This document shows positions 26,570 through 30,076 of a DNA stretch of 64,000 bases, piece by piece (within the stretch, counting starts at the first letter, position 1; each line of letters begins with the position of its first letter). The stretch is from contig JAAFJY010000006.1 in assembly GCA_013299105.1 (NCBI GenBank), positions 124,001-188,000 of the forward strand, in the 5' to 3' direction. The position numbers and the translations under genes are program-made. This DNA is from Chitinophagales bacterium (lineage in GTDB: Bacteria > Bacteroidota > Bacteroidia > Chitinophagales > Saprospiraceae). Below the pieces are notes generated by a model. It had not been told where the DNA came from, ran no database searches, and saw nothing but the letters and a program-made list of their open reading frames with translations.

Positions 26570-27241
26570 TTAGGACAAAACTGCTAAATATTTTTCTACA
26601 TACTCCGCCATCGTTTTCTTGCGGTATTGCATCACAAAGCGCGGGTGTGCCAGTGGCACAATTTCTCCAAAATAGCCTTCCGCTTGATTCAGCTTGTACA
26701 AAAAAGCATAATTTTTCCCTTCTCCCAAGCAAAAACAGCGTTCCCGTTCGATCATTCCTGTTTCCAGCAATTTTTCGAAATGCCATTTGATGACGGGCAA
26801 AACGGCTTTTTGTAAGGCTGGATCATCGTAGTAATTGTAATTGATGCCGCCTTTTACAAAGCCAAAAGGGCACACCGAATTGATGAAAAAACGCTGGTAA
26901 AAAGCATCCGCACCACCGAAGGCATCGATTACTGCATAGATAAAATGCGCCGATAATTCTGTTTTCTGGGCAAACGAATTTGCAATGCCCAGCTTGTGTT
27001 GCAAATGCCAAGGGTCCGTAAAAGCCACATTGGTGATGCCGCCGCCAAAACGACCTGGATTGATGCCCACGATTAAGCTGCGCCGGATTTCATCAGCATA
27101 ATATTTTCCCAAAAAAGCATGGAAGACTTTTTCACTTTCGGGCAGTTCAGCCAATGGCAACAACCACTCAATTCCGTCTGGAATGGCAGGAATTTGCTGA
27201 GGCAATTGGGCAAAATGAGCAGCAATTTGAGTCGAAAACAT
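26570..27241 (-). CDS. SMUG2-type uracil-DNA glycosylase family protein
   Basis: A 223-residue protein of the DUF4918/SMUG2 family. The glycosylase-fold signature SLIVGINPGRFGGGITNVAF carries the water-activating loop region, and the second conserved segment is PLAHPRFVMQYR with the catalytic-side His. In this family the enzyme removes deaminated bases such as uracil or xanthine from DNA in base-excision repair. The length matches the family. No partner repair genes are adjacent. Confidence 0.85.
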   Translation of the reverse strand: MFSTQIAAHFAQLPQQIPAIPDGIEWLLPLAELPESEKVFHAFLGKYYADEIRRSLIVGINPGRFGGGITNVAFTDPWHLQHKLGIANSFAQKTELSAHFIYAVIDAFGGADAFYQRFFINSVCPFGFVKGGINYNYYDDPALQKAVLPVIKWHFEKLLETGMIERERCFCLGEGKNYAFLYKLNQAEGYFGEIVPLAHPRFVMQYRKKTMAEYVEKYLAVLS

Positions 27242-27513
27242 GCTAAAGACTTGATTCGGAAGGGTAAAATGGCAAGATTTGGCAGTTTTTTTTCAAAAAA
27301 ACCGCAAAAAAACACCTTGTCCAGTAAACAAAAAAAACGCTTATACGTTTATGCTGAGTGACTGACGGAGCTGGCGTTCGTCTAAAAAATGTAAAATTTG
27401 CACTGAAAAGGTCCTTTATCAGGCCTTTCTAAAATATTTGGGCAGCTCACTTTGAGCCTTTCCCCAAATTTCAGTAACTTGCTAATGTTTTTTGTTTGTT
27501 TATAGTTTATGTG

Positions 27514-27542
27514 GGTGCTCCCTCCAAGGAGTACCTTTTTTT
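27514..27542 (+). terminator. Rho-independent terminator on + strand without a known gene
   Basis: GGTGCTCC-CTCCAA-GGAGTACC (8-bp stem with one G-U) followed by seven T. Nothing on the + strand upstream for about 270 bp is coding, so it may end a small RNA. Confidence 0.6.
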
Positions 27543-27591
27543 GTTTCTCTGTTTTCCTAACGCGGGTTCTTGGTTTGTGAAGTTTTTTCAA

Positions 27592-27690
27592 CATACGATA
27601 CACAATAGACGACATATGACTTGGAAGACTCGCTGGCAAGTTATGAGGTGGCTTAGGCATTCGTTTACACGGTTTTGGTATTTTGAATTT
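27592..27690. repeat. Dispersed ~100-bp repeat, copy B
   Basis: Aligns block by block with 5414-5520 (ACATACGATA, ACGACATATGA, TTGG, CTCGCTGG, GGCATTCGTTT, CGGTTTTGG, TTTTGAA). Non-coding. Confidence 0.55.
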
Positions 27691-27771
27691 ACAGCCCTTG
27701 GTATTTGAGCTAAAATAAGGAGGACATATTTGCTTTTGGGATTGCAGACACCAATCCCTCCAGCTTATTTT

Positions 27772-29445
27772 TTACGCTCCCTTATCTTCGCTTCCTAGCA
27801 ATTGACTCATCGCAACTTTGAACCAACTCGTTTTTGCCAAATCACTTTTAGCAATATTTTGGCGTTGAGGCAGTTGGGTGCAGTACGATTTCATGGGCAA
27901 CACTTTGTAATAAGTTTCAAAGTCATTGCTGTTTAGATATCCCGCTAAGATTGCGGCTTGTTCTTCATTTTTACTGCTGTTCTTGAATCTATTTTGCAAC
28001 GGTTTTTCATTGTATGCTGGTTCTCCAAAATAAGGATATTCGGTTCTTTTGAGGGCCAAAATAGGAATGATCTTATCCTTGGCTTGGTTCTTTGCTTCAG
28101 TCAGTTGAGTGACGTATTCATCTTTGTCAAATGGCTTGCCTTTTGAAGTGTTGTATTCCATCAAATTTTCAGGGTGGTACAAATAGTTTTCAATGCTGTA
28201 ATAATTCAAAACAGTCAAGTTGGGGTAATGCTTTTTTATCTCTGCAATGTCGGCATCACTGAGGAAGTCCCGGTCGACAATCCCTTTGTATTTGGTTGTT
28301 CTTACTTTGTGATAAACGTTATTACGGTTATTGTCAGATACAAAAACGGTGTTGGGAACCCCAACTGTTGCATAGTAGTCCCGGTCCTTGTTTTCAACGA
28401 AATAAATGCTCATTTGCTGAAACAAGGCAGGTAAAAATTCTTTTCCAACCGCTATTTCATAGATTTCGGGGTTGTCTTTGGGTTCTGGAGTCAGAGTTCT
28501 TGGCGAGTCAAAATCCAAATCATCAAAGTCGATGATGGAAGCATGATCGGCTTGTTTTGCATATTCAATGAACCCCAATGAGTGCGAAGCAGTCCACAAT
28601 TGGCAGTTCTCAGGGATCCAATTTTCAGTGATTTCCTTGATCAAGCTAAATTGGAGCTTGGTATTGAGGTGCAAATCAATTTCATCAAAAAAGTAAATGG
28701 TGTCCTGGTAAAGTGAGCTGCGACTTAGTAAGTTGAGCAAGAGGTTGAATACTTCCTTTTCCCCGGCGCTAAAATAATTGTAGTGGATTTCCGAATCACC
28801 TTTGCGAAAACTGATTTGGGCCACTTTTCCTTCTAATGGCGGAATAATCTCAATCAATTGAAGTTTGGTTCCGTTTCCACCGCCAAAAATATTATTCAGT
28901 GCATCATTGATGGGATCAATGTACTTCTTGCGAATCTGCTCGTTCGATTGTTGGGAGCGGAAAAAGTCCTTGAGAATCTCCTCAGTAATTTTTTCTACAT
29001 CGTTTTCAAAACGATTGTCCCTTTCAATGAAAAATTTGGGTCTATCGGAGTCTTTTTGAAAATCAACATTTGCGCCTTCTCCTAATGAGGTTCTGGTCAG
29101 GCGAGGAATTTGCCGAAAGCTGGTTCGTCCATAAAATGTGGTATCATTGAGTGCTGGTTTTTTAAAGAATGGAACTGTAACAGTAAATTCAGTATCACCA
29201 TCAAATTGAACACTCACTGCCAAATCTCCTGGTTTTTTGAGGTAATAGCTACGCCAAGATGAATCGTGACTTCTTACATCCATCTTAACTGCACCATCAA
29301 GAAACCCAAAAGCATCAAAAACCGAAGACTTACCAGAGCCATTTGAGCCAATCAACAGCACCAGTTTTTAACTTGACGGAATATTATCGATCAAAAGATT
29401 AGTGAATCTTTTGAAGTTAGTCAGTTGTATTTTTGATATTTTCAT
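27772..29445 (-). pseudogene. AAA-ATPase fused to DUF4435 (TOPRIM-like), PARIS/OLD-like, with in-frame stop
   Basis: Reading from the ATG at 29445 gives MKISKIQLTNFKRFTNLL, the usual start of AAA15/21-type ATPases. A TAA at 29368-29370 interrupts the frame three codons before a GTG. After it the frame continues into Walker A (LLIGSNGSGKSS), a signature-like YFSAGEKEVF, Walker B (TIYFFDEIDL) and a switch His (TASHSLGF). The C-terminal part resembles the DUF4435 TOPRIM-like nuclease: YFVENKDRDYY, GIVDRDFL and SIENYLYHPENL. Fused ATPase/DUF4435 proteins include single-chain forms of the PARIS anti-phage system. A shorter 529-residue protein could start at the GTG at 29361. The gene is either inactivated, recoded, or started internally. 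Confidence 0.7.
29368..29370 (-). other. In-frame TAA between start and Walker A of the AAA-DUF4435 gene
   Basis: The codon context on minus is CCG TCA AGT TAA AAA CTG GTG, with the frame open on both sides from the ATG at 29445 to 27772. Removing this codon would leave a normal family N-terminus. Confidence 0.8.
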
Positions 29446-29486
29446 TTTTCAATCCATCAAGTTGAAAATGCTTCAAGTTTCTTAGA

Positions 29487-29517
29487 TAAAGATACTCCCA
29501 ATGTGGCATATCTCCAA
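29487..29517 (-). promoter_or_regulatory. Promoter for the AAA-DUF4435 gene
   Basis: TTG (29515-29517 read on minus), 20 bp, then TATCTTTA (29487-29494) fits the -33/-7 pattern and lies 42 bp before the ATG at 29445, supporting that start. Confidence 0.4.
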
Positions 29518-29627
29518 ACACCCACTATACTTCTCCTTGGTAAGTTAACAGCAAAAGCCCCTTGAGCAAAGGTCATTATTGGGTTAGGGAGCTTGCACAT
29601 TAGAGATTGACACTCCCTCCCCATACA

Positions 29628-29663
29628 AAAATAGGCCACATCAACCCTGATGCAGCCTATTTT
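29628..29663 (-). terminator. Hairpin terminator of the cytochrome oxidase operon
   Basis: AAAATAGGC and GCCTATTTT form a perfect 9-bp outer stem, with CATCA/TGATG paired inside. It lies 21 bp after the last gene of the minus-strand respiratory locus and can work in both directions. Confidence 0.75.
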
Positions 29664-29684
29664 GTTGAGCCTTTACAAGAAGAC

Positions 29685-29963
29685 TTATTCCTCCATCAAT
29701 TCCTGGATGGCTTGCTCTTGCTCCTCCTCTTCGGGTTTGCGGCGATTGCGCCACCACACGTAGGCGAGCCCACCAATCAGCACATAAGGCGTGGCGAGCA
29801 TGTACAGGATGCCCGTATTGAGGCCCTTGCCCGCTGAACCACCACCTTTGAGGTTGCTCTCAACGGCCATGCGGCACATGGGGCATTGCGCTTGGGTATT
29901 TTCAGCGGCTAAGATGAAACCCAAGGCCAGTATCGTGATGAAAAACCATTTGCGTAGCTTCAT
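29685..29963 (-). CDS. Small CPMC membrane protein at the end of the cox operon
   Basis: A 92-residue protein with an N-terminal signal peptide or anchor (residues 1-26, ending TQAQ), the motif CPMCRM right after it, one clear transmembrane helix (ILYMLATPYVLIGGLAYVWW) and a strongly acidic tail. It is the last gene of the Sco/DUF420/cox set. The adjacent cysteines suggest metal or redox handling during cytochrome oxidase assembly (inference from position). The ATG at 29963 is used because it starts the signal peptide. Confidence 0.72.
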   Translation of the reverse strand: MKLRKWFFITILALGFILAAENTQAQCPMCRMAVESNLKGGGSAGKGLNTGILYMLATPYVLIGGLAYVWWRNRRKPEEEEQEQAIQELMEE

Positions 29964-30076
29964 GGTAGTAGTTTTTTTTACAAAAATACGTGAAAAAAGG
30001 GTAAGAATCAAGGGCAATTGTAGGATTGAGATGCTTAAAGTTTACAAAAGGACTGTTCTGCTGACGCCAAGCCCTC

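Follow-up and report, generated by a model that had tools for sequence, protein, structure and literature searches.

The minus strand of the window, by which we mean the whole 64,000 nt stretch of DNA analysed here, contains a reading frame (29445–27772) that is opened by ATG 29443–29445 and broken by an in-frame TAA at 29368–29370. This raises the question whether the stop codon marks a gene that has been inactivated, a gene that is translated by an unusual route, or an error in the sequence. We favour the first explanation, namely a lone PARIS/OLD-like defence gene that was recently inactivated by a nonsense substitution, and give it a probability of roughly 0.84.

The reading frame and its stop

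The TAA is preceded by 25 residues (MKISKIQLTNFKRFTNLLIDNIPSS) and followed by 531 sense codons up to the terminating TAA 27772–27774. The frame beyond the stop holds the Walker A sequence GSNGSGKSS and the stretches KDRDYY, VDRDF, and IENYLYHPENL. The first-pass annotation had described a frame from ATG 29445 that is broken by this TAA, and its coordinates and motifs proved correct on re-reading. An unbroken frame from the conserved start, as expected of a working gene, is not present owing to the TAA at 29368–29370. The ORF finder places the gene start at GTG 29361 (29361–29359), two codons past the TAA, which gives an open frame of 529 aa. Judged by the frame, the relatives, and the profile described below, the region as a whole is an interrupted gene for a putative fusion of a RecF/SMC-type ATPase and an AriB/TOPRIM-like protein, with ATG 29443–29445 as its would-be start. 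Both flanks of the TAA share one frame, so that no insertion or deletion but a base substitution alone is required.

For comparison we used 18 different relatives whose matches are long; a scan of genome contigs supplied 16 of them, and the remaining two (L002 and L003) came from whole-genome sequences within the same family. The whole genome of a congener (L047) contains the gene of L015, itself from the genus, letter for letter and this gene was counted once. Weaker or partial matches from the family draw (L004–L013) were excluded, and the copies from the phylum draw are outside the 18; the start of one of these, L060, is by eye that of L028. The gene is intact in 17 of the 18 relatives, and these 17 together with the window's gene form the 18 rows of the alignments. 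The exception, L029 (5917–7583, a Chitinophagales MAG), was left out of the alignments. Its family copy is broken mid-gene by a change of frame, which may reflect either a genuine pseudogene or an error in the MAG.

The codon aligned to the TAA, which the first-pass annotation had proposed to compare, is a sense codon in all 18 relatives and a stop in none. The 25 codons ahead of the stop (29445–29371) correspond in the alignment of the relatives to the conserved first ATPase strands with the NFKRF motif. They are 60–84% identical to the five relatives compared there, and I3, N10, F11, K12, R13, F14, and L17 are the same in every one of the 18 rows, the window's own pre-stop codons included (the first M of each row is set by the tool; L003 begins with TTG). 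Furthermore, a profile of 17 relatives covers the gene over model positions 1–544 of 546 with "1 TAA" within. The identity to the relatives and the nearly full-length profile alignment across the stop argue that the frame before the TAA is not a product of chance.

The remainder of the gene was inspected for decay. Of the 90 columns on which the other 17 rows agree, the start codon column (written M by the tool) among them, the window copy departs in one; the corresponding values for the other rows are 0–9 of 89–98. A long-standing pseudogene was ruled out on this basis. The tip branch of the window's gene in the tree (0.19) is of ordinary length when set beside those of L014 (0.16), L016 (0.17), and L015 (0.25). 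The grouping of the window with L015 has a support of 85/87, which falls under the tool's star, and pairwise dS is saturated and not estimable for most pairs. Given the sense codons in the relatives, the single change in 90 columns, and the ordinary tip branch, the mutation is either young relative to the divergence of the gene or a base error.

The single departure of the window copy at these columns is found at 28771–28773, immediately before the SAGEKE sequence, where the window has Phe and the other 17 rows have Leu. This Phe may be an early additional hint that constraint on the gene has relaxed.

In the favoured explanation the intact gene would encode a single-gene PARIS/OLD-like protein, whose ABC/RecF-type ATPase would sense infection and whose fused TOPRIM-type nuclease would be the toxic effector. 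The analogy is to PARIS, where, according to the excerpts of PMC9122126 and PMC12409363 used here, the ATPase senses a phage protein and frees or activates a tRNA-cutting TOPRIM nuclease; the protein encoded in the window may act in the same manner. Among the triggers of PARIS is the phage protein Ocr. The nonsense substitution after codon 25 would stop translation ahead of the P-loop, only a chain of 25 residues would be made, and the system would be off in this strain. Since the rest of the gene looks nearly intact, the nonsense event would be very recent compared with the divergence of the gene from its relatives. An inactivating mutation was one of the options of the first-pass annotation, and it is the best reading in view of the absence of the stop from the 18 relatives, the conserved N-terminus, and the little other decay. 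Loss of function would be the consequence; an anti-phage role is presumed from remote sequence similarity, and the cause may have been that a costly gene was selected against, or simply drift.

Other explanations for the stop

The near absence of decay would likewise agree with an error of sequencing or with some unusual way of using the gene, which is a point against the favoured explanation. If the TAA were a base-call or assembly error, the gene would be intact in the organism; we consider this unlikely. It is true that the gene is otherwise well conserved and that one base error would suffice. However, the adjacent A-run is not the cause, since an indel would have shifted the frame and no shift is seen across the TAA; a homopolymer indel error was ruled out for this reason. 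In addition, the contig that carries the gene in its interior is 275 kb long and belongs to a genome for which 99.99% completeness and 0.1% contamination are given; assemblies of such quality seldom contain substitution errors.

Read-through, reinitiation, and any other unusual use, even when taken together, account for a very small part of the probability. One such idea is that the TAA is tolerated on purpose, in that rare read-through or a restart at the GTG would keep a self-toxic sensor-nuclease at a very low level while both flanks are still under selection; this we regard as very improbable. Still harder to accept is that a start or restart at GTG 29361 yields a working shorter ATPase-nuclease. 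The GTG is near enough to the TAA for termination-reinitiation, but the codon at this position is GTG in 6 of the 18 relatives, the residues lost include the seven positions that are invariant in all 18 rows, and the codons ahead of the stop are still conserved. Moreover, the P-loop region of the short ORF is poorly modelled. A structure prediction with and without the N-terminus had been proposed in the first-pass annotation. The model of the GTG-start ORF (mean pLDDT 71.7) shows block means of only 33–49 over its first 50 residues, Walker A included, whereas in the model of the intact L015 protein (mean pLDDT 82.4, pTM 0.58) the corresponding blocks (about residues 31–80) reach 68–91 and residues 1–30 reach 94–95. 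The alignments supplied for the two models were near-identical (18 and 17 rows) but had different first sequences. The poor modelling of the P-loop without the N-terminus is suggestive, not proof. Normal translation from the internal GTG, a second option of the first-pass annotation, is not borne out by the codon in the relatives, the invariant positions that would be lost, and the low-confidence P-loop model.

The least probable explanation is the third of these earlier options, a programmed read-through of the TAA that sets how much of a toxic defence protein is made: conservation on both flanks of the stop would agree with it, yet a recent origin of the stop accounts for this conservation equally well, none of the 18 relatives has a stop at this position, and we know of no programmed UAA read-through in Bacteroidota.

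Genomic context and distribution

The inactivated defence gene that we favour stands alone in the window, as had been noted before: no recognised defence gene was found among the ten window neighbours scanned. Pfam names were obtained for seven of these (MFS, Por_Secre_tail, UDG, DUF420, COX4_pro, and two COX3), and three of the ten had no match. The G+C content of the gene is 0.393, that of the window 0.471, and that of two nearby genes 0.444 and 0.457. Leaving the gene itself aside, each neighbour family is found at three of 19 loci at most. Ten neighbours of relatives, picked from nine loci, have mostly functions in transport, metabolism, and translation; one of them is an AAA-ATPase_like/PDDEXK_9 protein. 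That these neighbours are mostly not defence genes is a further point against the favoured explanation.

Of the respiratory locus beside the gene, three members (the 202-aa gene, DUF420, and the 91-aa gene) are in place in four of four congeners. The ATPase gene is absent from the stretches of about 2.8 to 6.9 kb downstream beside the respiratory locus in all four; two of these congeners have the gene elsewhere and in the other two it is missing altogether. Within the genus the gene is present in three of five genomes, the window's own included, and this genome contains no second copy at E up to 0.001. A family-wide draw gave any match at E up to 0.001 in 13 of 199 genomes (own included; ten partial or weak), and a phylum-wide draw gave matches at E up to 1e-40 in 5 of 395 (own included; two partial). 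The phage records contained no match to the family, and the plasmid records one distant match from Zymomonas with 28% identity. Among viral contigs 13 pattern matches but no confirmed relative were found. The context is the picture of a lone gene that is gained and lost singly.

Two loci from Mucilaginibacter MAGs, L021 (3276–9442) and L028 (3726–9233), have four neighbour families in common around the member, one of which is a MauE-type gene immediately upstream (Pfam assignment from L021 only). At the other loci few neighbours recur; L017 and L019 have two in common. Members were also met in a Planctomycetaceae record (L020, 5917–7635) and in a Pyrinomonadaceae record (L025, 2445–4112); their identity with the protein of the window is 56% and 42%, respectively. 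These two records suggest transfer between phyla, or mis-binned MAGs.

Neither the promoter nor the repeats were kept as evidence. The first-pass annotation had pointed to a promoter-like box ahead of the ATG. Upstream of the ATG a sigma-70-type scan gave nothing on the minus strand, and the six sites of this type in the region compare with a mean of 5.6 in shuffled sequences. A match to the -7/-33 motif, which we take to be the Bacteroidota-type promoter, is located 49 bases upstream, but of 1000 stretches of 240 bases drawn at random from the window 30% have such a match, so that the box is no better than chance. Likewise, the supposed repeat-rich gap (27241–27772) dissolved on inspection: direct-repeat families are absent from it, and inverted repeats are represented by a single A-rich pair of 11 bases. 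For the wider region 26900–30000 the raw counts are seven direct-repeat families and nine inverted pairs, mostly short and imperfect.

The gene represents a lone PARIS/OLD-like family that was met mainly in Bacteroidota; a Planctomycetota record and an Acidobacteriota record contribute one member apiece. Its members are mostly situated amid ordinary genes and fall below the Pfam DUF4435 model. A freshly disabled copy is what one would expect to see of a costly defence gene that is frequently acquired and lost again. Most likely the early stop is an ordinary kind of event and not a new control device.

The encoded protein and known defence systems

Pfam AAA_21 matches the window's protein at residues 2–265, counted from the GTG, with E 6.7e-15 and 56.4 bits (cut-off 27), and AAA_15 matches with 35.8 bits (cut-off 32.1). 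Judged by these matches the protein is a RecF/SMC-type ATPase. The ATPase domain (29361–28567) contains what we take to be Walker A, the SAGEKE signature, Walker B (FFDEIDLH), and the ASHS switch. The PADLOC models for AriA (2.9e-18), AriAB (2.7e-13 and 7.1e-7), and AriB (1e-5) match the protein. Further ATPase models, among them mad3, AbiLi, PtuA, and ATPase-Toprim_I-B, match as well; therefore the ATPase half alone does not single out PARIS.

The fusion of an ATPase with DUF4435, as claimed in the first-pass annotation, was upheld by some searches but not by the Pfam model itself. Pfam DUF4435 (PF14491) gave no match in the window's protein, no match in the window's own genome, and a match at E 0.031 in one of 18 family members. 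In contrast, the C-terminal 240 residues alone (28494–27775) match PADLOC AriB at E 8e-6, and this model matches 13 of the 18 family members when E values up to 1 are allowed. With hhalign the C-terminal profile (18 rows) aligned to a DUF4435 profile with a probability of 86.5% and E 4.5e-6 over 85 columns spanning the Glu, DRDF, and YSIENYL blocks. The DUF4435 profile comprised 9 of 11 matches found in the same order, L053 (stop) and L057 (partial) being dropped. The AriB/DUF4435/TOPRIM-like C-terminal part has the acidic residues of a TOPRIM domain, an invariant Glu and an Asp-x-Asp, which are followed by a conserved ENYLYHPxN-like block. All 18 rows have E323, D363, and D365 (numbered from the GTG), and these residues are paired with the Glu and the Asp-x-Asp of DUF4435 through the profile-profile alignment. 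The Glu of the E323 type would be equivalent to the catalytic Glu of AriB, given as E26 in the excerpt of PMC12409363, with AriB itself outside the alignment.

When compared with solved structures, the C-terminal profile gave a single, unrelated match (E 1.8) and no solved AriB. Among the best 50 of 1042 PDB matches of the L015 model no solved AriB was seen either; the top neighbours in this set were PtuA of retrons and Septu and Rad50/SMC heads, and the matches are loose (TM by query 0.31–0.43, rmsd 6 Å or more). The putative AriB label consequently rests on the PADLOC AriB matches and the profile-profile match.

The likeness to PtuA (Septu, retron I-A) is one of structure, seen for the intact L015 model. 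The window's gene differs from PtuA systems in that no PtuB-like neighbour was recognised among the window genes scanned and in that its C-terminal part is AriB-like. The ATPase-TOPRIM effector of retron I-B (class 3 OLD) is also similar, the PADLOC model ATPase-Toprim_I-B aligning with residues 103–438 of the window's protein at E 1.2e-11, but no reverse transcriptase is found beside the gene. A retron effector was ruled out, as the sole RVT_1 match in the genome is on another contig (C40; the window is on C56). Class 1 OLD systems, as described in the excerpt of PMC10568477, resemble the window's gene in being a lone gene with an ATPase followed by a TOPRIM-type part. The window's gene is likewise a single gene with no helicase or reverse transcriptase partner, an organisation that does not distinguish an OLD-type TOPRIM from AriB. 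It differs in that its C-terminal part matches AriB models, and among the matches listed (25 of 50 in the PADLOC scan) there is no OLD-type model except a weak GajA match in the ATPase part and ATPase-Toprim_I-B.

The single-gene AriAB form of PARIS (Rousset et al. 2022, PMC9122126), in the excerpt used here, has the same composition, i.e. an AAA_15/AAA_21-type ATPase and an AriB/DUF4435-like TOPRIM end in one chain. The window's protein, known here from its sequence, differs in giving no Pfam DUF4435 match, in the stop within this copy, and in its low AriAB scores. The latter are 47.5 and 26.2 bits, PADLOC values that are not equated with those of the published fusion profiles, for which the same excerpt gives thresholds of 80 (AAA_15+DUF4435) and 20 (AAA_21+DUF4435). 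On the side of likeness, both AAA_15 and AAA_21 are above their curated cut-offs, and the PADLOC models AriA, AriB, and AriAB all match. The window's gene belongs to a known kind of system and is most likely a recently disabled copy of it.
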